From Candidatus Saccharibacteria bacterium oral taxon 488 (GTDB lineage Bacteria > Patescibacteriota > Saccharimonadia > Saccharimonadales > Saccharimonadaceae): a stretch of 64,000 nucleotides of DNA. Position numbers and translations under genes: made by a program. Below the pieces are notes generated by a model. The model did no database searches. It was given only the letters and a program-made list of their open reading frames with translations, and had not been told where the DNA came from. How positions within the stretch are numbered: position 1 is the stretch's first letter; every line of letters starts with the position of its first letter. Shown here piece by piece: positions 1,479 to 63,030 of the stretch. The stretch is from positions 62,001 through 126,000 of the forward strand of contig CP047919.1 of the NCBI GenBank assembly GCA_010202465.1. Direction: 5' to 3'.

Positions 1479-1501
1479 AATATTAGTAAATATTGTATGA
1501 T
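1473..1501 (+). promoter_or_regulatory. Sigma-70 promoter overlapping the argS stop
   Basis: A -35 element TTGTAA (1473-1478) is separated by exactly 17 nt from a -10 element TATGAT (1496-1501). The ATG of the next gene at 1511 lies 9 nt beyond the -10, so the predicted transcript has almost no 5' leader. The -35 overlaps the argS stop codon. Confidence 0.65.
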
Positions 1502-1510
1502 ACAGCAGAG

Positions 1511-2581
1511 ATGGAAGAGCATCTTTCTGCTAATTTGATGACGCCTAAACGGCAATTAGTTAAGGCTGAGCCAGGACTACGACGTGAACTTTTATTAGAC
1601 TCGCAGCAGCTGAAGTTGATTCGTGTGGTGTATGAACAGTCTCCGCAGACGTATGATGCTGCAACGAAGGCGGCAGTTAATATAGCACAGGTGGTGCGAC
1701 AAACGGTGGATTTTGCTCCGACTTCGGCTGATTCACCGCTACTCAATGCAGTTGAAGTTGCCAATCGTGAGGCTACAAACTGTTTTGGCCATGTCATTAT
1801 TGCCTCAGAATGTCTGGAGCAGCTCGGCATTGAGCATTTTGTCAGTTATGCGAATCAGCACGCCATGGTGACACTATTTGATCGGAGCAGTGAGCGAGCT
1901 TTTTTGCTGGATGTAGCGACGGAGGAGTTGTGCTGTGATATGACTGGCGTAATTGGCAGCGGTGCGCCCAACCCGCTTGACCAGTTGGCGATGGGTGAGT
2001 TGCGGGCAGTGAATGCGTTTTTTTCAGAGGAACTCTTGAAACGACTACCGCCGTCGATTGATAGGCAAAAGTTTATGAGCTCAAGGCCATGGCTGTCATT
2101 TGATGCTATTGATGCGGCACAATCTCACGAATATAAGCCCCGAAATCGGATATTACAGTTCTTAACATTACCCTCAGTACCGGGGCGTATGTTGTTGATT
2201 CAGCAGTATAATGCTGCCCGACGAGCGGGGTCGGGCGACATTGAAGCAGCAAGTGAAGAGCTGTCAGAATTATCAGGGATATATCTTGATGTTGATTCGC
2301 GAAATGGCCTGAAAGAAGTTGATGAGTTGTGCCGTCGGCTAATATCGGCGGGAAAATATGACGAAGCAATTGATTTGGCGACTATGGTGGACGAGAGCTT
2401 GGTTCCAGACGACAAATCGAAAAATAAGCTATTTTTGCCAGATGTCATGCGAAAAATTGCCAAACAGAAGGGCGACAAGAGACTTGCCCAAGAAGCCATT
2501 GCACTATATGAGGCGAAACCGCCAAATAGCCTGCGCAACGGCAAGCTTGCTGCAGCCATAAAACTTTTAGATAATTTGTAA
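1511..2581 (+). CDS. Unknown protein with transglutaminase-like core and helical C-terminus
   Basis: 356 residues, family not recognised. An in-frame TTG at 1493 would put the start inside the -10 promoter element, so ATG 1511 is preferred. Residues about 85-135 have the spacing of a transglutaminase/SirB1-like cysteine fold: a Cys in ATNCFGH, a His in NQHAMVTL and an Asp in AFLLDV, in the Cys-His-Asp order of that superfamily. The C-terminal third is rich in helix-repeat sequence (SAGKYDEAIDLA, RLAQEAIALYEA) resembling TPR units. No signal peptide or membrane segment is seen. The catalytic assignment is inference from three short motifs. It is followed 46 nt later by mscL, which has its own promoter. 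Confidence 0.6.
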   Translation: MEEHLSANLMTPKRQLVKAEPGLRRELLLDSQQLKLIRVVYEQSPQTYDAATKAAVNIAQVVRQTVDFAPTSADSPLLNAVEVANREATNCFGHVIIASECLEQLGIEHFVSYANQHAMVTLFDRSSERAFLLDVATEELCCDMTGVIGSGAPNPLDQLAMGELRAVNAFFSEELLKRLPPSIDRQKFMSSRPWLSFDAIDAAQSHEYKPRNRILQFLTLPSVPGRMLLIQQYNAARRAGSGDIEAASEELSELSGIYLDVDSRNGLKEVDELCRRLISAGKYDEAIDLATMVDESLVPDDKSKNKLFLPDVMRKIAKQKGDKRLAQEAIALYEAKPPNSLRNGKLAAAIKLLDNL

Positions 2582-2591
2582 AGTTTTATGC

Positions 2592-2597
2592 TACAAT
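2592..2597 (+). promoter_or_regulatory. Extended -10 promoter of mscL
   Basis: TGC followed by TACAAT (2592-2597) forms an extended -10. The start codon is 30 nt downstream and preceded by AAAGGAG, so mscL is a leadered, Shine-Dalgarno gene, unlike many neighbours. Confidence 0.5.
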
Positions 2598-2627
2598 CAA
2601 GGTACTACTTAACATAAAGGAGTTTTT

Positions 2628-3062
2628 ATGGCAGAGAAAAAAGTAGCCAAGAAGGCGACTACTAAACAGACGACTACTAAGAAATCAATTGTGAAAAAAC
2701 CAAGCGTGGCGGCACTGAAAGAAAAGGCAGCAGCAGTCAAAGGTCATGGCGGTGGTTTCATGACGTTTATTCGCGAGCAGGGTGTGGTTGGCCTGGCTGT
2801 CGGTCTGGCAATCGGTACAGCGGCTGGCGATACCGTCAAGAAATTAGTGACGGCGTTCATCGACCCGCTGGTGCAGTTGATTGTCGGCTCGCAGGAAGGT
2901 CTGCAGGCGGCATCATTCTCTGTTGAAATTGCCGGTCGTAAGGGTGAGTTTCTGTACGGCGCGTTTGTTAGCTCGCTCATCACTTTGTTGGCGGTGGCCT
3001 TTGTGGTGTATGCGATTATTCACTTCTTGAAGCTGGATAAATTAGACAAGAAAAAAGACTAA
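2628..3062 (+). CDS. mscL: Large-conductance mechanosensitive channel MscL
   Basis: Inner-membrane channel that opens under turgor and protects against osmotic downshock. 144 residues, of which about the first 40 are a Lys/Ala/Thr-rich, probably cytosolic tail not found in most MscL proteins. The core starts at GFMTFIREQGVVGLAVG, the conserved N-terminal helix and first transmembrane segment with its Gly/Ala-rich pore-lining face. A second transmembrane helix lies at about 108-130 (SSLITLLAVAFVVYAIIHF), followed by a basic/acidic C-terminal end. A strong AAAGGAG lies 5 nt upstream of the ATG. A rho-independent terminator follows directly, so the gene is monocistronic. Confidence 0.9.
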   Translation: MAEKKVAKKATTKQTTTKKSIVKKPSVAALKEKAAAVKGHGGGFMTFIREQGVVGLAVGLAIGTAAGDTVKKLVTAFIDPLVQLIVGSQEGLQAASFSVEIAGRKGEFLYGAFVSSLITLLAVAFVVYAIIHFLKLDKLDKKKD

Positions 3063-3079
3063 TTGGGCCTTAAAAACAG

Positions 3080-3108
3080 ATCCGCCGGATAAATGACGGC
3101 GGATTTTT
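3080..3108 (+). terminator. Rho-independent terminator after mscL
   Basis: Perfect 8-bp stem ATCCGCCG (3080-3087) / CGGCGGAT (3097-3104) with a 9-nt loop, followed by a T run to 3108. The A run at 3072-3076 on the other side could let it also act for the convergent pyrH transcript. Confidence 0.85.
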
Positions 3109-3174
3109 ATATGAAACGGTTTATGCTAGAACAAGGCGTACCGCTCCTAGCGCGAGAGTATGGTGCTTAGTGGG

Positions 3175-3879
3175 CTAGGAAATTAGTGTGCCGACCGTCT
3201 CGCCGCGAGCGGCCCGGGCGATGTTGCCGTCGGTGAGCAGGTCGCAGATGATGACCGGTTTGTTCTCCTCGGCGGCCAGTCCAATGGCGGCCTTGTCCAT
3301 AACAGTGATGTCAGGATTGGTGAGGATTTGGTCGTAGTTAAGATGGTCAAATTTAACGGCGTCAGGGAATTTAGCTGGGTCTTTGTCGTATACACCGTCG
3401 ACTTTCGTCGTTTTGATCACAACGTCGCACTGCATCTCGAGGGCGAGGTTGAGAGCGGCGGTGTCGGTAGTCAGGAAGGGCCGGCCAGTGCCGCAGGCAA
3501 CGATGACGATGCGGCCCTTCTTGATATGACTAAGGGCGCGGCGGAAGGTGTATTGGTCGATGAATTGATTAATCTCGACGGTGGACAGGGCGCGGGTCGG
3601 TAGGTCAGCGTCGTTGAATACATCGGCTAGAGCGATGGCGTTCATTAGAGTAGAGAGCATGCCGATATTGTGGGCTGAGACAGGCTGGATGCCATGCCCC
3701 ATGATTTGGTTGCCGCGGACGTAATTGCCGCCGCCGACCATGATGACGACTTCGGCGCCGCTGCTCAAGGCCGGTTTGATTTGTTCGGCGATCCAACGAG
3801 CCCGCTTAGGATCGAAGCCGCTGGCGAACTCGCCCTGGAGCTGCTCGCCGGATAATTTGAGAAGGATACGTTTTGCCAT
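3175..3879 (-). CDS. pyrH: UMP kinase
   Basis: Amino-acid-kinase-fold enzyme that phosphorylates UMP to UDP in pyrimidine nucleotide supply. 234 residues, close to the usual 235-245. It begins MAKRILLKLSGEQLQG, the family's N-terminal phosphate-binding strand-loop, and carries VVIMVGGGNYVRG, the Gly-rich loop, and KTTKVDGVYDKDPAKF typical of PyrH. An upstream in-frame extension exists, but the start at 3877-3879 is preferred: an extended -10 (TGC-TACACT, complement of 3886-3891) ends 6 nt before this ATG, predicting a leaderless mRNA. It is divergent from orn and convergent with mscL. Confidence 0.95.
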   Translation of the reverse strand: MAKRILLKLSGEQLQGEFASGFDPKRARWIAEQIKPALSSGAEVVIMVGGGNYVRGNQIMGHGIQPVSAHNIGMLSTLMNAIALADVFNDADLPTRALSTVEINQFIDQYTFRRALSHIKKGRIVIVACGTGRPFLTTDTAALNLALEMQCDVVIKTTKVDGVYDKDPAKFPDAVKFDHLNYDQILTNPDITVMDKAAIGLAAEENKPVIICDLLTDGNIARAARGETVGTLIS

Positions 3880-3922
3880 AACTTTAGTGTAGCATGCTGC
3901 AAGGAAGTGGTAAAATAGAAAC

Positions 3923-4477
3923 ATGAAAGCGAAATTCAAGCCACAACGAATTTTATGGCTGGATATGGAAATGACCGGGCTAGATCCGGTGGAGGATTTT
4001 CCGATTGAGGTGGCGATGATTGTGACCGACTGGGGGTTTACGGAAATTGCTCATTTTGAGGGTGCAGCGCACTGGTGTAGCAAGAAAATGCAAGCACGAT
4101 TTGATAAGAATAAATCATTTTGGTATGGCGATGGTGCGGCTGCGCGTGAGCAGTTGATGGCGCAAAACAAAGCCACCAAGACAACCAAGGCGCAGCTCGA
4201 GCGCGATATCTTGGCATTTCTGGATGAGTATTTTGATGATGCACCAATTTTATTGGCGGGCAATTCAATTCATCAAGACCGGCGCTTTATCGACCATTGG
4301 TTCAAGAAATTTTCGAAACGCCTCCACTACCGGATGCTAGATGTCAGTGCCTGGAAAGTGGTGTTTGAGGGCAAATACGGCAAAAAGTTCGCTAAGCCAG
4401 AGGATCATCGAGCGCTGGAGGACATCCGCGGTAGTATTCAAGAATTACAATATTATTTGAAGAAGGTGAAAAGCTAG
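3923..4477 (+). CDS. orn: Oligoribonuclease
   Basis: DEDDh-family 3'-5' exoribonuclease that degrades 2-5 nt RNA (nanoRNA) left by other nucleases. 184 residues, the normal length. Exo I motif is WLDMEMTGLD, Exo II is AGNSIHQDRRF, and Exo III contains the catalytic His/Asp pair in DHRALEDIRGS. An extended -10 (TGG-TAAAAT, 3911-3916) ends exactly 6 nt before the ATG with no Shine-Dalgarno, so a leaderless transcript is expected. It complements pnp and RNase J elsewhere in the window in RNA turnover. Confidence 0.95.
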   Translation: MKAKFKPQRILWLDMEMTGLDPVEDFPIEVAMIVTDWGFTEIAHFEGAAHWCSKKMQARFDKNKSFWYGDGAAAREQLMAQNKATKTTKAQLERDILAFLDEYFDDAPILLAGNSIHQDRRFIDHWFKKFSKRLHYRMLDVSAWKVVFEGKYGKKFAKPEDHRALEDIRGSIQELQYYLKKVKS

Positions 4478-4513
4478 GTTTACCAGTCGGCATATTCACG
4501 GCTGCTGAGTTAT

Positions 4514-4540
4514 TTGACAAGAGTGTACTTATCTGATAAT
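4514..4540 (+). promoter_or_regulatory. Promoter of the TPR-like gene
   Basis: TTGACA (4514-4519) and GATAAT (4535-4540) with a short 15-nt spacer. AAGGAG follows before the ATG at 4564, so this gene is expected to have a conventional leader of about 16 nt. Confidence 0.5.
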
Positions 4541-4563
4541 CTCCTGAGAAAAGGAGTTGGAAA

Positions 4564-5277
4564 ATGCATGCAGTAAGTTCTGAGTTACAGCAATATATGA
4601 CCGGGCTAACGAATGAGATTTCGCGCGGTCATTTTGATGAGGCTGTGCGGCTTGGCGAGAAAGCGCTGATAATGGAGGAGCTGCATGGTGAGGGTAACGA
4701 GTCACTACTAGGGGAGGTGTACCGCAATATGGCCGCCGTAAGTGATCGTTTGGGCCGAACTGACGCGGCGCTTAACTATATCGATCAGGCATATGACATC
4801 CATGATATAGCAACTAACAATGACCCCGGGATTGAGACGCTACGCGAGCGGTCAGCCACGGCATCGTATGTTGGTGTGTTTGCTTTAAAGGCGTATCTGT
4901 TAGCGGAGGGTCGGGATGAAGCGTTGGCGGACAAGGCGCGGCTCATGACGCGGCAGGCCGAGCAGGACATGGCAAAAGTAAACCAGCTTTCTAAAGAAGA
5001 GGACGCTGACCAGTACGAGATAAATATGGCATCCCGCTGGGGTATGGTTGAAAGTCTAGTGGGTGACAAGCAGCGAGGCTTGGCGCTGGCGGGCCGGGCA
5101 ATTCGATTGGCTCGGCAATCAGAGCGGGATCAACAAAAGGGCTTGACTGGGCGAGATGTTCTCAGGGCGCGAACACGAGCGGCGCTTCGTGGTATGGCGG
5201 CCGTGGCGGTAAATGCTGCGAGCCGATTTGGCGCGACGCGGGGCATGGCTGAGAAAATTGCTCTCAAGACATTGTGA
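4564..5277 (+). CDS. Unknown TPR-like soluble protein
   Basis: 237 residues, family not recognised. The N-terminal half shows tetratricopeptide-type helix pairs (GHFDEAVRLGEKALIM, EVYRNMAAVSDRLGRTDAA, LNYIDQAYDI), so it is probably a protein-interaction scaffold. No signal peptide or membrane helix is evident, although the C-terminal 30 residues are Ala/Arg-rich. AAGGAG precedes the ATG. The next gene starts 15 nt after the stop but has its own -10. Confidence 0.6.
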   Translation: MHAVSSELQQYMTGLTNEISRGHFDEAVRLGEKALIMEELHGEGNESLLGEVYRNMAAVSDRLGRTDAALNYIDQAYDIHDIATNNDPGIETLRERSATASYVGVFALKAYLLAEGRDEALADKARLMTRQAEQDMAKVNQLSKEEDADQYEINMASRWGMVESLVGDKQRGLALAGRAIRLARQSERDQQKGLTGRDVLRARTRAALRGMAAVAVNAASRFGATRGMAEKIALKTL

Positions 5278-5292
5278 TTGTATACTGAGAGC

Positions 5293-5628
5293 ATGACCCA
5301 TAAACAATTTGAAGAGTTTATCCTGAGTTTGCCCGGTGTGTGGCTGGATTATCCGTTTGGCGAGGATGTTGCGGTGTATAAGTTTGGTAAGAATAATGAC
5401 GGCGCAGGGAAGATGGTAGCCCTGGTGGCTGAGGGCTCGAAGCCGCTCAGGGTTAGTCTGAAGTGCGACCCACTACTGGCTGAGAATCTCCGCGAGAAGT
5501 ACGAGACGGTGCTGCCGGGGTATCATCTGAATAAGAAGCATTGGAATACCATCATTTGCTCGGGGCAATTGAGTGATGAAGAAATTTTTGATTTGGTGCG
5601 GCTAAGTTATCAGCTGGTGGCGGAGTGA
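5293..5628 (+). CDS. MmcQ/YjbR-family protein
   Basis: 111 residues matching the YjbR/MmcQ fold (double-wing, CyaY-like; proposed DNA binding): it begins MTHKQFEEFILSLPGV, then DYPFGEDVAVYKFG, KMVALV, SLKCDPLLAENLREKY and PGYHLNKKHWNTI, all characteristic of the family. A TTG at 5278 would extend it, but that overlaps TATACT (5281-5286), which lies exactly 6 nt before ATG 5293. The downstream start and a leaderless transcript are therefore preferred. The cellular role of this family is poorly defined. Confidence 0.8.
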   Translation: MTHKQFEEFILSLPGVWLDYPFGEDVAVYKFGKNNDGAGKMVALVAEGSKPLRVSLKCDPLLAENLREKYETVLPGYHLNKKHWNTIICSGQLSDEEIFDLVRLSYQLVAE

Positions 5629-5699
5629 GTAAAACAGCATAAACTGAGTGCCGGGAGAAATAGTGCTGCTCCGACCGACTTGTGCCGCATCGTGCGTGG

Positions 5700-6320
5700 T
5701 TATGACTTGTCCGAATCACCGGTGATCGCCATGAGCTGCTTGCGTACGTTGGTGAGGTCGGAAATGGTTTTCTCAAGAAAGTCAATTGTGCTTTTGCTGC
5801 GCGAACCCTCTTTGATACGATTCATCATCAAGAGCGTATCAGCCAGTTCGGTATTCATGGTGTAGGCATAGGTGTTGTCGAGGTCGGCATTGAGATAGGC
5901 CTCCTCAAATTTTTCCTCGAGTTTTGTCGGTGGGTCGAGCGCGGTGATGTTTTTGAGGTCTTTTTTGACGTCGATGTTCTGGGCGGCGGCCGGCGTCTCG
6001 ATGGACTTATTGGCAGTGGTGAGTACGGCTGTGAGCGAGCTATTAGCGTCTTGGAGCTGGCTGGATTTGAGGCGGGAAGTAAATTTCTCGGAGACGGTTT
6101 GGAGTTTTTGTAGACGAGCAATGAGGTTATTTAATGAAGGGCCGCGGGAGGCGTTTTGGGTGGCGTTGATGATAAAGGCCAGGCCGAGTAGTCCAATGAT
6201 GCCGAGAACGAGCAAGATAATTTTTGACTTTTTATCAAAGCCCTGCGGCGCTGGTGGTGCAGAAATCTGATTGAGATAATCAATACCGGTTGGCACGTCA
6301 TAGTCATCGTGTGGCTGCAT
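5700..6320 (-). CDS. Unknown membrane-anchored protein
   Basis: 206 residues. A short Pro-containing cytosolic N-terminus precedes one transmembrane helix at about 33-53 (IILLVLGIIGLLGLAFII), then a mostly helical, Gln/Lys/Asp-rich extracytoplasmic domain. It begins MQPHDDYDVPTG; a further upstream in-frame ATG exists but would start within the dnaG promoter region. It diverges from dnaG. The family is not recognised. Confidence 0.6.
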   Translation of the reverse strand: MQPHDDYDVPTGIDYLNQISAPPAPQGFDKKSKIILLVLGIIGLLGLAFIINATQNASRGPSLNNLIARLQKLQTVSEKFTSRLKSSQLQDANSSLTAVLTTANKSIETPAAAQNIDVKKDLKNITALDPPTKLEEKFEEAYLNADLDNTYAYTMNTELADTLLMMNRIKEGSRSKSTIDFLEKTISDLTNVRKQLMAITGDSDKS

Positions 6321-6374
6321 ATACCCATTAAAGCATAAACAACAACAGAGGTAAAGAGTGATATAATAAAAACC

Positions 6375-8108
6375 ATGCAAGATGCCAAGGAAGAAGTGCG
6401 GGCGCGGCTAAATATCGAGGACGTGATCGGCGAATATGTTCAGCTGAAGCGGGCGGGTCGTAATTTGAAGGGACTGAGTCCATTCACTGATGAGCGGACG
6501 CCGAGTTTTATGGTCAGTCCAGAAAAGCAGATTTGGCATGATTTTTCTTCGGGCAAGGGAGGCGATATTTTTACGTTCGTGATGCTGGTGGAGGGGATGG
6601 ATTTCCGGCAGGCGTTGGAACATTTGGCGCGCAAGGCAGGCGTGGATTTGAGTTTGTTTTCTGGTGGTGATGGGCGCACGGCCAAGCGGCGGGCGCGGGC
6701 AGGGGAGGCGCTGAAATTGGCCGCGAATTTCTATCAGCAAAATTTGGTGAAAAATTCGGCAGCACGAGAATACGCGGTGAAAAAACGGCGGCTGAATCGG
6801 CAGACGATCGGCGATTTTATCATCGGTTATGCGCCAGATCAGGGCGATGCGCTGACGAAAGCGCTGGAGAAGCGGGGATTTTCGCGCCGGGAACTGGCTG
6901 ATGCGGGGCTGGTTAATCGGTTTGGCGGCGACTTGTTTCGGGGGCGGATGATGGTGGCCTTGAGCGATAGCAGTGGCGAGGTGGTCGGCTTTACAGGGCG
7001 AATTATTCGTGATGACCCCAGGGCGCCAAAGTATCTGAACACGCCGCAGACACTGCTATTTGATAAATCGCGCCACATTTTTGGGCTGTATCAGGCGAAA
7101 GAGGCGATTCGTAAAAGTGACGCGGCGGTGATCGTCGAGGGGAATTTGGACGTAGTTAGCAGCCACCAAGCTGGCGTCAAAAACGTGGTGGCGACGGCAG
7201 GTACGGCGATGACCCTACAGCATCTGAAGGCGCTGAGCCGGCTGGCGGGGCGGATTCGTGTGGCGTTTGATGGCGACCAGGCGGGCGTGAGCGCAACAGA
7301 GCGGGCGATCAATTTGGCGCAAGAAATTGGTGTGGAATTAGAGGTGGTGAGCTTGCCGGATGGTGTGAAAGATCCAGACGAATTGATCCAAAAGGATGCG
7401 GCATTATGGCAGCTGGCGGTTGAGCGGGCGCAGCCGGCGGTGGATTGGGTAATTGCTCGGCATGCCGGGATGGAAGATTTGGCGACGGCCGAAGGCAAGC
7501 GGCGATTTTCAACAACCGCGCTGAGAATTGTGCGCGGCTTAAAAGATCCAGTGGAGCAAGAGCATTATTTGGCGGTGATTTCTAAAGAAACTGGCGCTAG
7601 TCTCGCGGCCTTGCGGGCAAAGCTTGGCGCTGAGAGATCAACGCCGCCCGCTCAGCTCAAAAAACCAAAGATTGAAAAGGCGACTCCAAGTAAACCTCGT
7701 GACGAATTAGCGGACATCATCGTCGGTCTAGCGCTTAGTCAGCCGTCGACGCGGCGCTGGGTTGGGGCGCTCGAGGCGGCAAGCTTGGACGAGCCAGCTC
7801 GAGCAGTGGTGACGTCGCTGCAGGCTGAGCCGCTACTTGACGTAGAAAAATTACCCTGTCCCTTGCAAAAATTTGAGCAGTATGTGAAAATAGTACAGTT
7901 AAAAAGTGAACGCCGCTACATGGACTGGGAGCCGGAGGCTCTGGACAGTGAAATGGCGCGTTTGGTAAAGCAATTGATACGTAAACACCGCGACACAAAA
8001 AAACAACAATTATTAGACAATTTGCGTGAGGCTGAGGAGCTCAGCGATGAGGCGCGGGCGCGCACCTTGCGGCAGCAGCTGAACGCACTGATTAAGGAGA
8101 ATGCGTGA
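6375..8108 (+). CDS. dnaG: DNA primase with degenerate zinc-binding domain
   Basis: 577-residue bacterial primase that makes RNA primers for replication. The N-terminal domain aligns with the DnaG zinc ribbon by its flanks ([39 protein letters not shown]), yet the four expected zinc ligands are replaced: Ser35, Thr38, Asp56 and Ser59 stand where Cys, His, Cys and Cys are normally found. The TOPRIM core is intact ([10 protein letters not shown], and VAFDGDQAG with the DxD). The C-terminal helicase-interaction region is divergent. TATAAT (6362-6367) is 7 nt before the ATG, so the message is predicted leaderless. The stop overlaps the GTG of rpoD, forming the classic macromolecular-synthesis pair. 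Confidence 0.95.
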
Positions 8109-9131: not shown

Positions 9132-9719
9132 TCAGCACTGCTCAGGCGCCTTACAAAAATGTTCGTGGTGAGTGACGGCTTCTAACTGCGCGTATAGCTC
9201 GTCCAGTCCGTGGTCGTTCATCACAAAATAATCGGCGATGGCAATTGGTCCGCCTTTTTCCAGGTTTTCAATTTCCGACCAATCGCGTTGGTCAACTTCG
9301 CGTGGTTGCATCGGTCGCTCAGGGCGTTTGGCCATACGTTGATAACGCAGGTGTTTTGGCGTGACAACGGCGATGACGGACATTTGGCCAGGGAATTCGT
9401 GCTTGAGAATTTTATATTCACTCCAGGTATACAAGCCGTCCAGGACGATCAGTTTTTGGCCAGCGTCAATCAAGTCATGTGCGGATTTAACGACGCGCTT
9501 GACCACGAAATCTTTGCCTTCGCGTCGGCGAATTTCCTCGCGGAATTTTTGCTGATTGTCCCACGTTGGTTCAATGCCAGCTTCTTCCATGGCCTTGTAG
9601 ATGATGCCGCCAAAATAGATTTTCGGAATACCCTTTTTGGTGAAATATTCGACCGCCGAACTTTTGCCGCTACCAGCCAGACCGACGAGGGCGATAATGT
9701 TTGCATGTGGTTGTGTCAT
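9132..9719 (-). CDS. P-loop kinase of the dephospho-CoA kinase/UPF0200 type
   Basis: 195 residues. The Walker A motif GLAGSGKSS lies near the N-terminus, followed by YFGGIIYKAMEEAGIEP, LIVLDGLYTWSEYKIL and VVTPKHLRYQRMAKRPE, the order seen in UPF0200-like and dephospho-CoA-kinase-like nucleoside kinases (COG0237-like). The substrate cannot be told from sequence, and a CoA role is unproven. The ATG (9717-9719) is exactly 6 nt after an extended -10 that forms one half of a palindromic divergent promoter shared with polA. It is convergent with rpoD across a bidirectional terminator. Confidence 0.75.
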   Translation of the reverse strand: MTQPHANIIALVGLAGSGKSSAVEYFTKKGIPKIYFGGIIYKAMEEAGIEPTWDNQQKFREEIRRREGKDFVVKRVVKSAHDLIDAGQKLIVLDGLYTWSEYKILKHEFPGQMSVIAVVTPKHLRYQRMAKRPERPMQPREVDQRDWSEIENLEKGGPIAIADYFVMNDHGLDELYAQLEAVTHHEHFCKAPEQC

Positions 9720-9725
9720 GTTGTT

Positions 9726-9747
9726 AGTATAGCAAATTTGCTATACT
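9726..9747. promoter_or_regulatory. Palindromic back-to-back extended -10 promoters (kinase / polA)
   Basis: A perfect 22-bp palindrome with half-site AGTATAGCAAA. Its two ends are TATACT hexamers on opposite strands, each with the TGC extension. The polA ATG (9754) and the kinase ATG (9719) are each exactly 6 nt beyond their -10. The complete intergenic region is 34 bp. Confidence 0.8.
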
Positions 9748-9753
9748 GAGTAT

Positions 9754-12288: not shown

Positions 12289-12334
12289 CCGGGGCGGTGA
12301 GTGCAAAACTGACAGAATATGGTATAATCAACCC

Positions 12335-14867: not shown

Positions 14868-14918
14868 GTCAGTATACCGAAAGGCATGGCTTAAGGGGGT
14901 ATTTGGTATAATTAAGTC

Positions 14919-16848: not shown

Positions 16849-17202
16849 CTATTTAGCTTCTTTGGCAGCTGGTTTTTTTGCGGTGGTTGATTTCGCCGTG
16901 GTTTTTGCCGCCGTCTTTGCTGGGGCTTTGGCTGCTGGCTTTTTGGTCGCTTCAAGCTTAACGCCGGCTTTTTTGGCGATAGCTGAGAGGGCACTCTTGC
17001 GCCGAGCGGCAGTGTTTTTCTTCAGCAAGTTCTTCTTAACAGCGGTGTCAAGCTCACTGTGAGCAGTGGCCAGTGTTGTGGCGCTTGGCTCGGCCATGAA
17101 GGCCTTGACAGCTGACTTGATGTCGCGCTTGATACCGATATTGCGCTCGCGGCGTTTTAGGGTTTGTTTTGCCCGTTTGATGGCGGATTTGATGATTGGC
17201 AT
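16849..17202 (-). CDS. rpsT: 30S ribosomal protein S20 with Ala/Lys-rich tail
   Basis: Ribosomal protein bS20, which binds 16S rRNA. 117 residues; the conserved helical core is PIIKSAIKRAKQTLKRRERN through AVKKNLLKKNTAARRKSAL. The last 35 residues are a low-complexity Ala/Lys/Pro/Thr tail (KPAAKAPAKTAAKTTAK) that most bS20 proteins lack. A promoter TTTACT-N17-TATAAT on the minus strand (17248-17276) and an AAAGGA site give a conventional leadered message. Confidence 0.93.
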   Translation of the reverse strand: MPIIKSAIKRAKQTLKRRERNIGIKRDIKSAVKAFMAEPSATTLATAHSELDTAVKKNLLKKNTAARRKSALSAIAKKAGVKLEATKKPAAKAPAKTAAKTTAKSTTAKKPAAKEAK

Positions 17203-19802: not shown

Positions 19803-19819
19803 AGTGCTATTATCAAATT

Positions 19820-20314: not shown

Positions 20315-20366
20315 TAAATGCGGTTGATTTGCGTTTTTAGCGTAGCATTGGTATAATGACGAGGCT

Positions 20367-20633
20367 ATGATTAGCAAAGACGATAAAGCGAAAGCAATTG
20401 CTTTGACTCAGGTCAGCAAGGACGACGTTGGCAGCCCGCAGGCGCAGGTGTCGATCTTGACGGCTCGTATCAAAGAGGTCACCAAGCACCTGAAGGCGAA
20501 TAAGCACGACTTCATGGCACGTCGTGGCTTAATCCAGATGGTTGGCAAGCGTAAGCGCCTGCTCAGATACCTGGAGCGAACTGATTTTGAGAGTTATAAA
20601 GCGGTTGTGGCTGCCCTGGGTCTGCGTAAATAG
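20367..20633 (+). CDS. rpsO: 30S ribosomal protein S15
   Basis: Ribosomal protein uS15, which binds the 16S central domain. 88 residues, the normal length. DVGSPQAQVSILTARIKEVTKHL and RRGLIQMVGKRKRLLRYL are the conserved core. TGG-TATAAT (20352-20357) ends 9 nt before the ATG, so only about 3 nt of leader are predicted; a GAGG sits too close to the ATG to act as a normal Shine-Dalgarno. A terminator follows. In many bacteria rpsO precedes pnp; here pnp is 2.3 kb downstream. Confidence 0.95.
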   Translation: MISKDDKAKAIALTQVSKDDVGSPQAQVSILTARIKEVTKHLKANKHDFMARRGLIQMVGKRKRLLRYLERTDFESYKAVVAALGLRK

Positions 20634-21286: not shown

Positions 21287-21408
21287 TTGTTATATTGTAG
21301 CATGAGCGGGTTTTTCTGGCAGTATGGGTTGTTGCCTTACCGGAGTGAGTTGATCTATTTAGGGGTATTAAATTGACTTTTTATAGTTTTTATGCTAAAT
21401 TACAGAGT

Positions 21409-26064: not shown

Positions 26065-26077
26065 GTATAATAGAAAT

Positions 26078-28968: not shown

Positions 28969-29039
28969 CTCACGCTTGCTATTTGTTGTAAAATATGCTA
29001 CAATGTGGATGTCGGTAAAGTGATATAATAAAAACAGGT

Positions 29040-33053: not shown

Positions 33054-33090
33054 GGACCCTATTGTAGCATGGTCTGGCGGGGTGCATCAC

Positions 33091-35474: not shown

Positions 35475-35503
35475 TTGAGAAAAATATGTATTCAGGCTAC
35501 AAT
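35475..35503 (+). promoter_or_regulatory. tlyA promoter
   Basis: TTGAGA (35475-35480), 17-nt spacer, TACAAT (35498-35503). An ATG overlapping the -10 (35502) is excluded as a start. Confidence 0.65.
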
Positions 35504-37382: not shown

Positions 37383-37410
37383 ATCGTGTATTATAACAAA
37401 TTATACAAAC

Positions 37411-37439
37411 TTGCCTCAGTATATAATATGTATTAGAAT
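37411..37439 (+). promoter_or_regulatory. Promoter at the head of the surface-protein/pilus locus
   Basis: TTGCCT (37411-37416), 17-nt spacer, TAGAAT (37434-37439), ending 7 nt before the ATG at 37447. An additional TATAAT is at 37422-37427. Confidence 0.6.
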
Positions 37440-37446
37440 AAGCAGT

Positions 37447-41587: not shown

Positions 41588-41627
41588 GGGTTTTACATTT
41601 CGATATGCTTATGTATAATAGAATAGT

Positions 41628-48977: not shown

Positions 48978-49003
48978 CATAATTTCTTGTTACCATTAAC
49001 AGT

Positions 49004-49870: not shown

Positions 49871-49897
49871 TAGTGCTTATGCTATAATAATGAGCAT

Positions 49898-53977: not shown

Positions 53978-54027
53978 GATTTAATTTTAACAACATCTAT
54001 ACCGTTTATCAAATGGCTAGTTTTTGT

Positions 54028-54060: not shown

Positions 54061-54588
54061 ATGACCGAATCAAAAGAGAAGAACATGTGTGGCATTGAAC
54101 GAACACTGATTGTGTTCAAGCCTGATGCAGTACAGCGGGGGATCGTCGGCGAAATCTTGCAGCGGTTTGAGCGTGTTGGTCTCAAGATTATCGGTGTCAA
54201 GATGGTAGCTCCGGGTCGTGAGCATTACTTTGCGCACTACGAAACGATTGGCAAGATGGTGACCCGTCGTGGTGAAGAAATTTTTGACATGACGCTTGAT
54301 ATGATGATGGACGGGCCGGTTATCGCTATGGTTCTTGAAGGAGTTGAAGCGGTTGCCGTGGTGCGTAAAATTGTTGGCCCAACCGAGCCAAAGTCTGCCG
54401 ATATGGGTACGATTCGTGGTGACTATTCGCATGTTAGCTTTGGCTACGCCAACGAGTGCCAGAAGGGTGTGCCGAATTTGATTCACGCATCGGGTGATCC
54501 TGACGAGGCAACGCAAGAAGTCGCCCACTGGTTTAAACCCGAAGAGTTGATGGATTATGCGACGTTAAACGAGAAGTTTACTCGGTAG
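54061..54588 (+). CDS. ndk: Nucleoside diphosphate kinase
   Basis: Transfers the gamma-phosphate between NTPs and NDPs. 175 residues from ATG 54061 (AAGGAGG upstream; the earlier ATG at 54013 precedes the promoter). RTLIVFKPDAVQRGIVGEIL is the core N-terminus, TIRGDYSHV the nucleotide loop, and NLIHASGD contains the phospho-accepting His. It is about 30 residues longer than usual: an N-terminal extension, and extra residues between the TIRGDY and NLIHAS motifs. A strong terminator follows. Confidence 0.94.
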   Translation: MTESKEKNMCGIERTLIVFKPDAVQRGIVGEILQRFERVGLKIIGVKMVAPGREHYFAHYETIGKMVTRRGEEIFDMTLDMMMDGPVIAMVLEGVEAVAVVRKIVGPTEPKSADMGTIRGDYSHVSFGYANECQKGVPNLIHASGDPDEATQEVAHWFKPEELMDYATLNEKFTR

Positions 54589-56333: not shown

Positions 56334-56409
56334 GCCGCTGTAGCTCAGTTGGTAGAGCGGCGCTTTCGTAAAGCGTAGGTCACCGGTTCGAATCCGGTCA
56401 GCGGCTCCA
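56334..56409 (+). tRNA. tRNA-Thr (anticodon CGT)
   Basis: 76 nt with encoded CCA. Acceptor GCCGCTG / CAGCGGC, D arm GCTC/GAGC, anticodon loop TTCGTAA (CGT), T arm CCGG with TTCGAAT loop. The discriminator is T, so the mature 3' end is UCCA; this matches the UGGA of the candidate T-box upstream of thrS. It decodes ACG. Confidence 0.95.
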
Positions 56410-56416
56410 GAACAGC

Positions 56417-56794: not shown

Positions 56795-56798
56795 AATT

Positions 56799-58484: not shown

Positions 58485-58885
58485 TGAGGCGGTGCTGAGC
58501 GGCATACTGGAGTGCCGCTATTGGATCGTAGCGTTGGAGAATCATGTGTGTTATTTGAGTGATGATTTGCGTAGATAGCGGCTTACCTTGCTTGATAATC
58601 TGTTGCTGCACAGTTTGTGCAAGGAAGTAGCTATCATGTGCTGCAGCATGCTTATTATGTTGAAAGCTACGGCTAATGCTTATGATGAGCTTTCCTAAAT
58701 TGAAAGGGGTGGTTGACCCGTCGTGTGTTAGCACCATGCGCCCGTCTAGCGTAGCCTGTTCGTATGTCGTAAAGACTGCGCCACATTCTGGACAGGCCCG
58801 TCGCCGCCAGACGCTGGGGTGTTTCGTGTGCTTGCGGGAGTTTTTTTGTAGTAGTTTTATCGTGAAAACAATTTATACAAATCAT
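58417..58885 (-). pseudogene. nrdR: NrdR transcriptional repressor, frameshifted at an A7 tract
   Basis: Zinc-ribbon/ATP-cone repressor of ribonucleotide reductase genes. From ATG 58883-58885 the frame encodes MICINCFHDKTTTK, then runs out of register at seven A (T7 at 58841-58847 on the plus strand). Removing one A continues into NSRKHTKHPSVWRRRACPEC, AVFTTYEQ and the ATP-cone MVLTHDGSTTPFNLGKL, ending at 58417. Both CxxC pairs and the ATP cone are then complete, about 155 residues, the normal size. It may be a pseudogene, a sequencing error, or a gene expressed through slippage at A7. The 3' end overlaps the convergent glycosyltransferase. Confidence 0.85.
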
Positions 58886-58948
58886 ATCAATATATTGACA
58901 TATCGCTATAAAAAATACTAGTGGAAAAGTATATAAAAATGTGTAAAA

Positions 58949-58984
58949 TAGAAAAAACTAAAAACCCTCCGCACTGCGAGGGTT
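58949..58984 (-). terminator. tRNA-Val terminator
   Basis: AACCCTC (58963-58969) / GAGGGTT (58978-58984). Read on the minus strand, the hairpin is followed by an interrupted T tract from the A-rich 58949-58962. Confidence 0.8.
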
Positions 58985-58995
58985 GTATGCAATAA

Positions 58996-59072
58996 TGGTG
59001 GGCAATAGAGGATTCGAACCTCTCACCTCTTCAACGTCAATGAAGCGCTCTAGCCAAATGAGCTAATCGCCC
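58996..59072 (-). tRNA. tRNA-Val (anticodon GAC)
   Basis: 77 nt on the minus strand with encoded CCA. Acceptor GGGCGAT / ATTGCCC (one wobble), D arm GCTC/GAGC, anticodon stem CTTCA/TGAAG with loop TTGACGT (GAC), T arm GAGAG/CTCTA-type with TTCGAAT. It decodes GTC and GTT. An extended -10 TGC-TATTAT lies about 11 nt upstream on the minus strand. Confidence 0.94.
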
Positions 59073-59220
59073 GACTATTGTCAATAATAGCAGGAATTAG
59101 TGGTGAATGCAATTACCTCTTGCGGAGAGCGTAGGGGTTGGCCGTCATGTCGTTCTTGGTGTAGTATTACGGATCCGCTACCTAGTCCATGCGTCGTAAG
59201 GGTTGCCCGGAACTTTTAAC

Positions 59221-59395
59221 TATGATACGGTGAGAATAGCAAGGACAGAGACTAACCACCTCTCGAGCAACGTGAAAGCGGTTGCGGCGCACGAAACCAG
59301 CCGGAGCAAGAGTCATCGCCAAGGTGGAACCTCCTGGCTCGTCCCCAGGACCGAGGCACGCACGCTATACGCGTTGGGCGTGCTTTTATAATCAC
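59221..59395 (+). promoter_or_regulatory. Candidate T-box leader of thrS
   Basis: The leader contains AAGGTGGAACC (59321-59331), which matches the T-box core. Its bulge TGGA (59325-59328) is complementary to the UCCA end of the tRNA-Thr in this window. The antiterminator arm is TCCTGG (59332-59337) / CCAGGA (59345-59350) with GCC..GG / CCGAGGC around it. It shares bases with a terminator GCACGC+ACGC (59356-59365) / GCGT+GCGTGC (59371-59383) followed by T4. Upstream is a hairpin GCAAC / GTTGC (59267-59285). A possible start is TATGAT 59221-59226. Stem I would be short; no specifier could be fixed (ACC and ACG both occur). Confidence 0.6.
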
Positions 59396-59409
59396 TTAAA
59401 GGAGGTTTT

Positions 59410-61221
59410 ATGAGCGAAGATAAACTCTATGCAATGCGACACAGCCTGGCGCATATTATGGCGGCGGCTGTGCAGCGGGTATGGCCAGACGCCAAGTTTG
59501 GAGTTGGTCCGGTTATTGAACATGGGTTTTATTACGATATTGATCTTGGTGAAACGAAGATCAGTGAGCAGCAGTTTAATAAAATTGAAAAGGTAATGCG
59601 ACGAATCATTGCCGAAAAGCAAGACTTTGTGTGCACAAAATGCCCAATTGATGAAGCAATTCAATGGGCCAAAGATAGCCATCAGCCATATAAAGAAGAA
59701 CTTCTTAATGACCTAAAACGTGCCGGGACAACGGTAGCAAAAGATCTGGACGCTGCAGAAATGGGTACAATTGCCGAAGGTGATAGCGCGCTCGATGAAG
59801 TTTCGTTTTATACCAACGGGTCGTTTAAGGATCTGTGTCGTGGACCGCATGTTGCAAATACCAGCGAGGTTGGTGCGTTTAAGCTGATGCGGGTTGCAGG
59901 TGCCTACTGGCGAGGCAATGAAAAGAATCCTCAGATGCAGCGACTATACGGTGTGGCTTTTGCCACGCAGGAAGAGCTGGATGAATATTTGGAGAAATTA
60001 GAGCTGGCCAAACAACGTGATCATCGAAAGTTAGGCAGAGAACTTGATCTATATACGACCTCACCATTAGTGGGTGTCGGTTTGCCATTATTTACACCTC
60101 GTGGAACTGTCTTGCGCGATATCGTGGCCCAATACTCAAATCAGCTGCGTCAGAGGTTTGGTTTTGAAAAAGTCTGGACGCCGCATATTACTAAAAAGGA
60201 CCTGTATGAAACGTCGGGTCACTGGGCTAAATTTGGCGAAGAACTGTTTCTGGTTAAAAGCCAGGAAACCAGTGATGAAATGGCGTTAAAGCCGATGAAC
60301 TGCCCGCACCATACGCAGATTTTTGCTTCACAACCTCGTAGCTACCGCGATATGCCGGTGCGCTATTTAGAGACAACCACTGATTATCGTGACGAGAAAA
60401 CCGGTGAGCTTGGCGGCCTGAATCGTGTGCGCTCGCTGACCCAGGATGACAGCCATGTCTTTTGTCGCCCAGACCAAATTGAACAAGAAATCAATAATTT
60501 ATTGTCTGCTGCCCAGGAATTGTACGGTACTATTGATATGAAACTGCGGGTTCGACTCAGTTATCGTGATGATTCTGATGCATATTTGGGCGAACGTGAA
60601 TTGTGGGCTTCTGCACAAAATCAGTTGAAATCAGCAGTTGAAAAAGTTGGCTTGGACTATTTCGAGCAGGAAGGTGAGGCTGCTTTTTACGGACCAAAAA
60701 TTGACTTTATGGCGACTGACGCTATTGGCCGTGAGCACCAAGTCGCGACGGTGCAACTGGACTTCGTGCAGCCGCAACGGTTCGGCTTGGAGTATACAGA
60801 GAATGATGGTAATTTTACAACACCCGTAATGATTCACTGTGCGCTGCTCGGGTCGATTGAACGATTCTTGAGTGTCTTCATTGAACACACGGGTGGTTGG
60901 TTCCCGTTTTGGGCGGCGCCAGAACAAGTACGTATTCTAACGATTAATGACACTGTCTCAGACTACGTTGATGAAATTACATCGATTTTATCAGAGGTGA
61001 CCTTAATGAAACCAATAAAATACAACGATGTAAGATTTACAATAGATAGTCGTAATGAATCCCTTGGGAAAAAGATTCGTGAGGCGACTGTTGTAAAAAT
61101 ACCAATACAGATTATTGTTGGGCCAAAGGATCAGATAGCACGTGTCGTAAGTATCAGGACGCATGCGGGTGAAGAGCAAATTCCGCTTGAACAGCTAGCT
61201 GAATATATACGGGGACTGTAA
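59410..61221 (+). CDS. thrS: Threonyl-tRNA synthetase without TGS domain
   Basis: 603 residues. It starts directly in the editing domain (LYAMRHSLAHIMAAAV with HxxxH), skipping the about 60-residue TGS domain of standard bacterial ThrRS. The class II core is complete: motif 2 YLETTTDYRDEKTGELGGLN RV (Arg), zinc ligands Cys in LKPMNCPHHT, His in QDDSHVFC and His in VMIHCALLGSIERF (motif 3). The anticodon-binding domain ends the protein. AAAGGAGG precedes the ATG, 15 nt after the leader terminator. Confidence 0.95.
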   Translation: MSEDKLYAMRHSLAHIMAAAVQRVWPDAKFGVGPVIEHGFYYDIDLGETKISEQQFNKIEKVMRRIIAEKQDFVCTKCPIDEAIQWAKDSHQPYKEELLNDLKRAGTTVAKDLDAAEMGTIAEGDSALDEVSFYTNGSFKDLCRGPHVANTSEVGAFKLMRVAGAYWRGNEKNPQMQRLYGVAFATQEELDEYLEKLELAKQRDHRKLGRELDLYTTSPLVGVGLPLFTPRGTVLRDIVAQYSNQLRQRFGFEKVWTPHITKKDLYETSGHWAKFGEELFLVKSQETSDEMALKPMNCPHHTQIFASQPRSYRDMPVRYLETTTDYRDEKTGELGGLNRVRSLTQDDSHVFCRPDQIEQEINNLLSAAQELYGTIDMKLRVRLSYRDDSDAYLGERELWASAQNQLKSAVEKVGLDYFEQEGEAAFYGPKIDFMATDAIGREHQVATVQLDFVQPQRFGLEYTENDGNFTTPVMIHCALLGSIERFLSVFIEHTGGWFPFWAAPEQVRILTINDTVSDYVDEITSILSEVTLMKPIKYNDVRFTIDSRNESLGKKIREATVVKIPIQIIVGPKDQIARVVSIRTHAGEEQIPLEQLAEYIRGL

Positions 61222-61225
61222 TCTT

Positions 61226-61824
61226 GTGCGTAGGCTAAGAATTGCAATTGATATTGACGATGTTTTAGCAGAAAATGCAATCGGGTTCGTGGCATTTAGT
61301 AATGAACGGTGGGGCACACGATTGAGGGTTGATGACTATAGCGAACATTGGTCAGAAATGTGGCATGTTGATAGCGAGGAGGCAGAACGGCGTGCTCATG
61401 TCTTTCACGACTCTGGTGCGATAAAGGGATATGCTCATATAGGGGGGCGGAGGAGGTGCTTAGAAACATGTCGCAGGTGCATCATCTCATGGTGGCTACT
61501 TCGCGTCGCTTGCAGGTGCAAAGCGATACACTGCTTTGGATCGAGGAGCATTTTCCAGGGGTTTTCGCCAGTTCTGCGGTCTACTTCTCTGGCCTATGGG
61601 ATACGGTGCACGAGGACTCTCATAAACTGACAAAAACAGAGTTAATCACGCAAATTAATGCTGATGTTTTAATTGATAATCAGTTGAAACACTGTTTAGC
61701 TGTTTCCGAGACTGGTCGTAATGCCATCTTATTTGGTGATTATACTTGGAATAGAGCAGATAGTTTGCCGGATAGAGTGGTGCGATGCCATTCGTGGTCA
61801 GAAGTGGAGGTGGAAATTGAGTGA
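61226..61824 (+). pseudogene. HAD-family 5'-nucleotidase (NT5C-like), frameshifted at a G6 tract
   Basis: From GTG 61226 the protein begins RRLRIAIDIDDVLAENAIGF, with the DxD nucleophile motif of NT5C-type HAD phosphatases. The frame is lost at six G (61442-61447). One additional G would continue as AEEVLRNMSQVHHLMVATSR, then DVLIDNQLKHCLAV and end at 61824, giving about 199 residues, the normal length with all HAD motifs. It would dephosphorylate (deoxy)nucleotides if expressed. It may be decay, error or slippage. It lies 4 nt after thrS and overlaps the next gene. Confidence 0.8.
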
Positions 61825-62140
61825 ATTGCCAATAGCTAGCTTGCGAGACCGGATCTATATTCTCATGGCGCAGCTACCTGACGACAAGGTGACGACGTAC
61901 GGTGACTTGGCAGCACTGTCTGGACACCCGCACGCAGCACGAATTGTGGGCGGGATAGCGCATGGTGGCCCAGAGAATTTGCCGTGGCATCGCCTAGTGA
62001 ACGCGAAAGGTGGCTTGGCGGTAGGTTTTCCGGGTGGGCAAGGTGTGCAAAGGCAGCTACTTGAACAAGATGGTATTTATTGCGATGAAAGGTGGCGGAT
62101 AATTGATTTTGAGGAACGACGATGGCGGCCGAAACTATAA
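61817..62140 (+). CDS. Alkyltransferase-like protein (ATL)
   Basis: 107 residues from TTG 61817, with GGAGG 6 nt upstream. It matches the C-terminal DNA-binding domain of O6-alkylguanine transferases: MAQLPDDKVTTYGDLAALSG, RIVGGIAHGGPENLPWHRLV. The acceptor Cys of the PCHR motif is Trp (PWHR), so it flags O6-alkylguanine for other repair instead of removing it, as ATL proteins do. An upstream extension to 61721 is in an overlapping frame of the nucleotidase gene and is rejected. It overlaps both neighbours. Confidence 0.88.
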   Translation: MSELPIASLRDRIYILMAQLPDDKVTTYGDLAALSGHPHAARIVGGIAHGGPENLPWHRLVNAKGGLAVGFPGGQGVQRQLLEQDGIYCDERWRIIDFEERRWRPKL

Positions 62141-63006
62141 AAGCAAAATTACCCCTAGTTGTTATCGCGGGGCCGACTGCTAGTGGTAAGACCTCACTAG
62201 CGATTCGTCTGGCAAAACAATATAATGGCGAAATAATTTGTGCCGATAGCAGAACAATATATCGAGACATGGATATTGGTACGGCAAAGCCAACTATGGC
62301 TGAGCGAGAAGCCGTGCCCCATTGGGGCCTTGATTTGGTCAGCCCGGGCGAGACATTTAGCGCCGCACAGTTTAAGGAGTATGCTCTGCAAAAAATAAGT
62401 GAAATTCGCTCTCGGGGGTGTTTACCATTTCTTGTCGGCGGCACGGGTCTCTATATCGATGCAGTAATTTTTAATTTTCAATTTGGAGCTCCTCCTGATC
62501 CTAGTTTACGGCATGAGCTAGAAAAAAGGACAGTAGTCGAACTACAATATTATTGTTATAAATACAACAGAAAATTACCAGAGAATAACAAGAATAAGCG
62601 CTATCTTATACGTGCTATTGAACAAAAAAATAAAAATAACAGATATGAATTTATGATTAGAGATAATAGTATCGCTGTAGGTATAGCAACGAATAAGGAA
62701 ATATTGCGAACAAGAATTGTGCTCAGGTCTGAACAATTATTTTTAAATAATGTTGTGAGTGAAGCAATGTTGTTAGCCCGAAAATATGGCTGGGATAATG
62801 AGGCTATGACGGGTAATGTCTATCCGTTGGTCCGAGAGTTTTTGAATAGAAATATTACCGAAAATGAATTAAAGCGGCAATTTGTTATAGCTGATTGGCG
62901 GTTGGCGAAGCGACAGATGACGTGGTTGCGGCGTAACCCGTTTATCATGTGGGCGACGCTTGACTCTGCTGAACACTATTTGTCACAACTTTTGGCTCGG
63001 GCGTAA
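62122..63006 (+). CDS. miaA: tRNA dimethylallyltransferase
   Basis: Adds dimethylallyl to A37 of tRNAs reading UNN codons. 294 residues: P-loop VVIAGPTASGKTSLAIRLAK, ICADSRTIYRDMDIGTAKPT, HWGLDLVSPGETFSAAQFKE, LVGGTGLYIDAV. The middle (about 62510-62790) is markedly AT-rich and Asn/Lys-rich (KYNRKLPENNKNKRYLIRAI), unlike the flanks. The catalytic N-terminal part is conserved. The start overlaps the ATL gene by 19 nt. Confidence 0.94.
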   Translation: MAAETIKAKLPLVVIAGPTASGKTSLAIRLAKQYNGEIICADSRTIYRDMDIGTAKPTMAEREAVPHWGLDLVSPGETFSAAQFKEYALQKISEIRSRGCLPFLVGGTGLYIDAVIFNFQFGAPPDPSLRHELEKRTVVELQYYCYKYNRKLPENNKNKRYLIRAIEQKNKNNRYEFMIRDNSIAVGIATNKEILRTRIVLRSEQLFLNNVVSEAMLLARKYGWDNEAMTGNVYPLVREFLNRNITENELKRQFVIADWRLAKRQMTWLRRNPFIMWATLDSAEHYLSQLLARA

Positions 63007-63030
63007 AATTTATGGTACAATTTTTAATAC

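Follow-up and report, generated by a model that had tools for sequence, protein, structure and literature searches.

Fixed -10 box spacing points to widespread leaderless-type gene starts in Saccharibacteria

We analysed a 64,000-nt stretch of contig CP047919.1 (positions 62,001-126,000, called here the window) from Candidatus Saccharibacteria bacterium oral taxon 488, a small and probably host-dependent Saccharibacterium. An initial annotation had reported that about two dozen genes of the window have a -10 box 6 to 10 nt before the start codon and lack a Shine-Dalgarno (SD) site. This observation is confirmed as real and beyond chance: a -10 box stands in a fixed position, about 6-7 nt ahead of the start codon, as in bacterial leaderless (TA-led) genes. 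From the sequence it is very probable that, in roughly a fifth of the genes, sigma-70-type -10 promoters start RNA on or near the start codon and that these messages are taken up by the ribosome as leaderless mRNAs, SD-led genes forming a second class. The interpretation first given is supported in outline.

Results

The -10 box is held at a preferred distance from the start codon

The window is too small to give a sharp spacing peak (TAnnnT before an ATG with a long open reading frame occurs 9 times at a gap of 6 nt between box and start codon, 18 times at gap 7, 16 at gap 10 and 11 at gap 1), and the genome-wide tests were run on relatives instead, in which the peak is clear. The main relatives were G001 (OX335598.1, 400 of 702 kb) and G165 (the genome behind locus L003, 400 kb of a 541-kb contig). 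The window polA is 84% identical to polA of Candidatus Saccharibacteria OX335598.1, which the window adjoins in a polA tree built from the window, 24 of the best 80 related loci and 21 others. The label is Saccharibacteria, Saccharimonadia(les) or TM7 for 69 of these best 80 loci, and another group name or none for the other 11.

When TATAAT was counted in front of an ATG opening at least 100 codons, without gene calls, a gap of 6 nt was found 12 times in loci L001-L005 and 41 times in L006-L080; in the latter, gaps 7 and 8 gave 32 and 26 cases, compared to 0-6 at most other gaps. Counting boxes with at least five of six matches over the window and relatives, again without gene calls, gave 282 cases at gap 6, 162 at 7 (161 in a second count), 91 at 8, 94 at 9 and 61 at 10, for a baseline mean of 36 at gaps 12-30 (these counts and the initiator analyses made on such boxes below leave out L001 and L081-L084, repeated contexts being counted once). 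A dip at gap 5 occurs for CTG too. With motif-blind gene calls, in which start codons are picked by codon usage alone, TAnnnT stands at gap 6 in 43 of 291 genes of G001 (mean of 8.6 at gaps 12-40) and in 40 of 316 genes of G165 (mean of 6.3). The genome-wide spacing plot that had been suggested as a check, run here on the relatives, shows the peak at 6-7 nt and brings no refutation. As controls, 150 kb of Thermus thermophilus displayed the same 6-nt peak (12 at gap 6 versus 1.6), 50 kb of E. coli displayed none (2 versus 3.6), and a Rhodococcus stretch held too few boxes for the spacing to be judged.

AT-rich upstream DNA with its many candidate boxes could be thought to place a TAnnnT before any gene by chance; this motif is indeed frequent at every gap and the window counts are small. 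Such an explanation is refuted by the spacing peaks of the relatives, obtained with and without gene calls, and agrees neither with the conservation of the box at orthologs nor with pattern counts that exceed their reversed control in 50 of the 50 genomes behind the loci searched, so that we give it practically no weight.

A pyrimidine-A step at gap 6 places the predicted transcript start on the AUG

At gap 6, a pyrimidine directly precedes the ATG in 255 of 282 cases, compared to 405 of 691 ATGs whose box is distant (p = 8e-25). Elsewhere, a pyrimidine at -1 is found at 103 of 170 SD starts and at 4720 of 8815 ATGs that lack a box. Across 51 genomes of the class, the pattern TATAATN5YATG (Y, pyrimidine) occurs 1369 times for 225 in the reversed control, about six times as often, whereas TATAATN5RATG (R, purine) occurs 301 times for 213, or 1.4 times; the Y form is above the R form in all 51. 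Within the window, C or T directly precedes the start codon in 10/10 gap-6 genes. Transcription by sigma-70 RNA polymerase usually starts at a pyrimidine-purine step about 7 nt downstream of the -10 box. Because the pyrimidine-A step sits at this very place, the +1 nucleotide at gap 6 is likely to be the A of the AUG.

The boxes are of the extended -10 type: TGn precedes 228 of 534 boxes at gaps 6-8 versus 104 of 691. The -35 element is faint, a spacer of 17 bp giving at least five of six matches in 4.7% of cases and at least four of six in 12%, compared to about 0.5% and 4-5%, respectively, at other spacers.

These promoters could be genuine and yet start their transcripts 1-5 nt before the AUG, yielding very short leaders instead of leaderless messages. 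The excess at gaps 8, 9 and 10 (91, 94 and 61 versus 36) speaks for this, as do the rpsO orthologs, which hold gaps 8-10, and the seventh nucleotide after the box, which at gap 9 is A in 48% of cases versus 28%. At that gap a 3-nt leader would fit, for example in rpsO. However, gap 6, which is the largest class, has its pyrimidine-A step exactly on the AUG, and the boxes are aligned to the AUG at one preferred distance; short leaders are on the whole a rather unlikely explanation. Gaps 8-10 form the weaker class. The 6- to 10-nt gaps had been treated as a single class, of which the 6-7 nt peak holds; the inclusion of gaps 8-10 was too strong, a leader of 1-4 nt being as likely there.

Boxes and SD sites avoid each other

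A start was considered boxed when a box lay at gap 5-9 with T1, A2 and T6 fixed and at least one further match to TATAAT; genes without an upstream neighbour in their stretch were left out of the shares. Boxed starts were found in 73 of 270 genes of G001 (27%) and 68 of 316 genes of G165 (22%), from which we estimate that about 20-25% of genes, roughly a fifth, carry a leaderless-type box (2.5-9% in controls). In the window, motif-blind calls gave 13 boxed genes of 46, versus 85 of 1667 internal ATGs of G001. Gene calls are few for the length of G001, probably because of frameshifts in the assembly. In OX335598.1, the open frame of translation initiation factor IF3 spans just 87 aa versus 172-200 aa in other genomes, and that of the S1 domain (C1:20985-21200) 93 aa versus mostly 660-740 aa; judged from these short frames, this assembly is probably frameshifted.

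Divergent genes are boxed in 27 of 62 cases in G001 and 27 of 70 in G165, and genes more than 80 nt from a neighbour on the same strand in 15 of 89 and 25 of 97, respectively. At same-strand distances of 30 nt or less, 14 of 81 (G001) and 11 of 109 (G165) are boxed and 41 of 81 and 68 of 109 have an SD match: SD sites dominate within operons. Outside operons, box and SD avoid each other (Fisher p = 3.7e-7 for 207 genes of G165; p = 0.0015 for 151 genes of G001). The proposal of two initiation classes is borne out by this mutual avoidance together with the prevalence of SD sites in operons. Overall, SD matches were found in 130 of 316 genes of G165 and 99 of 270 of G001. Neither signal was found in 122 of 316 and 106 of 270 genes, respectively, partly through errors in the start calls; as these genes are many, there may be more than two initiation classes.

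The 3' tail of 16S rRNA reads GGAUUACCUCCUUUCUA, including CCUCC, in 4/4 genes read (four of five genomes gave a 16S gene), so the anti-SD is intact and SD pairing is available. The four genes read from L081-L084 all end in GGAUUACCUCC; the usual 16S tail is GGAUCACCUCC. IF3_C and S1 domains were detected in 12/12 genomes. By contrast, bS21 is strongly diverged, scoring above the Pfam cut-off in 2 of 12 Saccharibacteria genomes, as a weak match in 8 and not at all in 2. Among the 16S tail, IF3, S1 and bS21, no sign of a ribosome specialised for leaderless mRNA was seen.

Protein S1 binds AU-rich leaders, and the 12 genomes examined encode a protein of about 360 residues with four S1 domains. 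The TATAAT-like element might on this ground be an AU-rich translation enhancer within leadered mRNAs and no promoter. An AU-rich tract, however, is not expected to take the form of a fixed hexamer at a distance exact to one base, nor to come with a TGn extension, a faint -35 element at 17 bp and a pyrimidine-A step, and we consider this explanation highly improbable.

Boxed genes of the window and their orthologs

Re-reading the window, with SD matches scored at 4 nt or more, recovered TAnnnT at the reported gap in all 23 genes, 10 at gap 6, 6 at gap 7 and 7 at gaps 8-10, as had been described; none of the 23 has an SD match and 17 carry the TGn extension said to be frequent. They are given here with start codon, box (strand in brackets) and the ortholog rows that have a box at gap 5-9.

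pyrH, ATG 3879: TACACT with TGn, gap 6, 3886..3891 (-); 5/5 rows
orn, ATG 3923: TAAAAT with TGn, gap 6, 3911..3916 (+); 14/20 rows
YjbR-family gene, ATG 5293: TATACT, gap 6, 5281..5286 (+); 15/44 rows
AAA_18 kinase-like gene, ATG 9719: TATACT with TGn, gap 6, 9726..9731 (-); 21/22 rows
polA, ATG 9754: TATACT with TGn, gap 6, 9742..9747 (+); 48/59 rows, 34 at gap exactly 6
gene at ATG 12335: TATAAT with TGn, gap 6, 12323..12328 (+); 2/3 rows
holA, GTG 14919: TATAAT with TGn, gap 6, 14907..14912 (+); 29/43 rows, GTG start in 11/43
pilin, ATG 19820: TATTAT with TGn, gap 6, 19808..19813 (+); 3/3 rows
udg, ATG 26078: TATAAT, gap 6, 26066..26071 (+); 0/2 rows
xer, ATG 53977: TAAAAT with TGn, gap 6, 53984..53989 (-); 1/1 row
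dnaG, ATG 6375: TATAAT with TGn, gap 7, 6362..6367 (+); 34/49 rows, 26 at gap 6
sortase, GTG 21286: TACAAT with TGn, gap 7, 21294..21299 (-); 2/2 rows
pheA, ATG 33053: TACAAT with TGn, gap 7, 33061..33066 (-); no rows
ychF, ATG 37382: TATAAT with TGn, gap 7, 37390..37395 (-); 1/2 rows
gene at ATG 37447: TAGAAT, gap 7, 37434..37439 (+); no rows
pilD, ATG 49004: weak box TACCAT with TGn, gap 7, 48991..48996 (+); 1/1 row
pilM, ATG 41628: TATAAT, gap 8, 41614..41619 (+); 2/2 rows at gap 5-9
rpsO, ATG 20367: TATAAT with TGn, gap 9, 20352..20357 (+); 18/25 rows at gap 7-9, mostly 8-9, and 4 at gap 10
gene at ATG 49898: TATAAT with TGn, gap 9, 49883..49888 (+); 1/1 row
gene at ATG 63031: TACAAT with TGn, gap 9, 63016..63021 (+); no rows
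gene at ATG 1511: TATGAT, gap 9, 1496..1501 (+); 1/1 row
tlyA, ATG 35514: TACAAT, gap 10, 35498..35503 (+); 1/2 rows, at gap 6
ftsK, ATG 29040: TATAAT with TGn, gap 10, 29024..29029 (+); no rows

Profile matches support sigma-70, with its regions 1.2 to 4, as well as AA_kinase (pyrH), RNase_T (orn), YjbR (5293), AAA_18 (9719), DNA_pol3_delta_C (holA), N_methyl (pilin), UDG and Phage_integrase (xer), and further dnaG, sortase, YchF, PilM, S15 and the TlyA subfamily. The profile score of pheA is below cut-off, 12335 has no Pfam match, and 37447, 49004 (pilD) and 63031 have no NCBIfam match; names without profile support are those of the initial annotation. As for the genes named there as having strong SD sites, 8 of the 9 examined (a set that leaves out rpsR) have an SD match and ndk, taken to start at 54085, has none; its likelier start at 54061 carries a clear SD, GAAGGAGG.

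Ortholog rows were excluded when the match started after residue 6 or covered less than half of the query, or when no start codon lay within 4 codons; L001 and L085 represent the same genome and are both counted for most genes near polA, and 10 of the 49 window genes have no ortholog row. SD matches are scarce at the orthologs of boxed genes: polA 7/59, the kinase-like gene 0/22, dnaG 5/49, holA 8/43, truB 3/33, orn 2/20, rpsO 4/25 and pyrH 0/5. The picture is reversed for SD-type genes, with 4 boxed and 38 SD of 45 rows for the gene at 17202, 0 and 6 of 10 for rpoD and 0 and 8 of 11 for pnp. The truB gene of the window has no box and its orthologs have one at gap 5-9 in 22 of 33 rows; mscL is SD-led in the window and boxed in 2 of 5 rows. 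Since boxed and unboxed orthologs of the same gene occur for truB and mscL, as well as for fpg, the YjbR-family gene and udg, genes switch class.

Two further features of upstream regions were seen. The rpsO box (window 20352-20369) stands 8-10 nt, not 6-7 nt, from the ATG in 19 of 25 ortholog rows, which would suit a preference for a leader of some 3 nt. In the region before dnaG (window 6340-6367; L002, L004, L005 and L030), a ACAGAGGTAAAGAGTG-like stretch precedes the -10 box and is perhaps the box of a divergent neighbour or a regulator site.

Proposed mechanism and points against it

The spacing, the type of box, the gap-6 initiator signature, the conservation, the avoidance of SD sites and the intact anti-SD are features of the DNA itself. 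We infer from them that the boxes drive transcription, where the 5' ends lie relative to the AUG and how ribosomes would bind. In the proposed mechanism, sigma-70-type -10 promoters, often of the extended form (TGnTAnnnT) and for the most part lacking a -35 element, would drive about a fifth of the genes, RNA polymerase starting on the start codon or a few nucleotides from it. At gap 6, the pyrimidine-A step would set +1 at the A of the AUG. The resulting mRNAs would lack an SD site, and either 70S ribosomes or 30S-IF2-fMet-tRNA would bind directly to their 5'-terminal AUG, the remaining genes using ordinary SD initiation on the same ribosomes.

Several observations weigh against this mechanism or against its uniform use. 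The pyrimidine-A signature was looked for at gaps 7 and 8 and is absent there, with a weak trace of it at gap 9 (41 of 94, p = 0.048); for these reasons the first nucleotide at gaps 7-10 is not fixed by the sequence. The A bias of gap 9 has a similar counterpart at gap 12 (47% versus 27%, n=38). The chance level of boxed starts is not negligible in G001, with 85 of 1667 internal ATGs (5.1%) and 72 of 833 shifted upstream positions (8.6%), and amounts to 45 of 1769 internal ATGs (2.5%) in G165. The operon pattern of boxed starts is not uniform between the two genomes: at same-strand distances of 31-80 nt, 17 of 38 genes are boxed in G001 versus 5 of 40 in G165. Finally, the box is missing in some orthologs (29 of 44 rows for the YjbR-family gene, 15 of 49 for dnaG and 2 of 2 for udg), and fpg is mixed, with 28 boxed and 20 SD of 58 rows.

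Tight divergent pairs

The kinase-like gene at 9719 and polA are divergent and only 34 bp apart (window 9720-9753). Between them lies a perfect 22-bp palindrome, AGTATAGCAAATTTGCTATACT, which makes up both -10 boxes, set back to back; the two promoters must overlap. The palindrome was considered as a conserved element and rejected, being present in 0 of the 8 orthologous divergent regions that were placed (of the 20 rows in which both genes occur, the other 12 gave no divergent placement within 200 bp). Other doubly boxed divergent pairs of the window are separated by 43 bp (3880-3922) and 64 bp (37383-37446), and in G165 such pairs were found at 35, 47, 82 and 127 bp (L167, L161, L171 and L170) among 18 divergent pairs closer than 150 bp. 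It may be that leaderless starts allow divergent promoters to lie very close together.

GTG starts and breadth across the phylum

No excess at gap 6 was found for GTG, TTG or CTG (30, 23 and 21 versus means of 26, 30 and 24), and TATAATN5YGTG shows none in the 51 genomes of the class (112 versus 188 in the control). The holA and sortase genes of the window start with GTG, a codon that in the relatives has no aggregate excess at such spacing. An exclusion of leaderless GTG starts was considered and toned down, the GTG share being equal in boxed and SD genes (4 of 64 and 8 of 126 by motif-blind calls in G165) and holA keeping GTG in part of its orthologs; rare leaderless cases such as holA are plausible.

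For other Patescibacteria, the 20-80 kb available per group was too thin for a spacing plot and whole-genome pattern counts were used instead. The ratio of TATAATN6-8ATG to its reversed control is above 1.5 for 130 of 147 genomes of the class and for 74 of 116 genomes of a phylum sample, and 1 or less for 3 and 19, respectively. Thirty of these 116 genomes, selected at both ends of the ratio ranking and not at random, were compared at gaps 6-8 and 16-18: 26 of 30 have more boxes at 6-8, 23 of 30 at p < 0.05. There is no such excess in G104, G053, G063 and G085, and that of G044, G032 and G076 is not significant. A polA was found in 21 of the 30, none of which groups within the Saccharibacteria clade of the polA tree; p < 0.05 is reached by 15 of them. 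It can be suggested, tentatively and with some doubt, that leaderless initiation is lineage-wide and ancient in Saccharibacteria and several other Patescibacteria lineages, with strict pyrimidine-AUG and, unlike in mycobacteria, in practice AUG-only 5' ends; the trait would let these small genomes set divergent leaderless genes as close as 34-47 bp.

Discussion

If this holds, gene finders tuned to SD sites would misplace many Saccharibacteria starts, and constructs meant for these epibionts, which are hard to grow, should reproduce the spacing from promoter to AUG and not an SD site. A branch of the candidate phyla radiation would join Actinobacteria and Deinococcus-Thermus for the study of leaderless translation, the pyrimidine-AUG step and the missing GTG signal providing simple rules that can be tested. 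No published leaderless genes of Saccharibacteria, TM7, Patescibacteria or the candidate phyla radiation were found in the literature searched, which mostly did not extend to subscription papers and preprints, and earlier notice is possible. The accessible passages of PMC7441243 and PMC10434106 do no more than cite the GeneMarkS-2 paper, those of PMC6851277 cite a protein-secretion tool and those of PMC12641178 mention YchF; PMC10783764 does not mention Saccharibacteria or Patescibacteria.

Comparison with known systems

The promoters resemble extended -10 sigma-70 promoters in having TGnTATAAT, mostly without a -35 element, and a pyrimidine-purine start about 7 nt further on; unlike in such promoters generally, +1 is predicted to be the start codon itself in the main class. 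In organisms of the Bacteroidetes type, which initiate independently of SD, SD sites are largely unused. Saccharibacteria differ from these, with SD matches in 130/316 genes of G165 and 99/270 of G001 and CCUCC in 4/4 16S tails.

The leaderless genes of Deinococcus-Thermus carry TAnnnT some 12 nt upstream of the start codon, and averages of 19% leaderless genes in Actinobacteria and 39% in Deinococcus-Thermus are given in the available portions of the same paper, where TM7 is not mentioned (Zheng et al. 2011, PMC3160421). The 6-nt gap is shared with T. thermophilus pTT27 (12 at gap 6 versus 1.6). Deinococcus-Thermus has the bare TAnnnT core in GC-rich DNA, in up to 46% of genes according to those portions (PMC3160421), whereas Saccharibacteria have a TATAAT-like box with TGn and about 20-25% of genes boxed. 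GTG is raised too in T. thermophilus (4 versus 0.7, with stronger boxes) and is not in Saccharibacteria. As in Actinobacteria, leaderless and SD-led genes would stand side by side and in comparable share (19% on average in the part of PMC3160421 available). In mycobacteria, as described in the accessible part of Shell et al. (2015, PMC4633059), a message needs no more than an ATG or GTG at its 5' end, as shown by RNA-seq and reporters; unlike there, Saccharibacteria give no aggregate GTG signal, and their case is read from sequence. This minority mode of initiation is already known in bacteria, and the genome sequences read here point to its wide and conserved use in Saccharibacteria.

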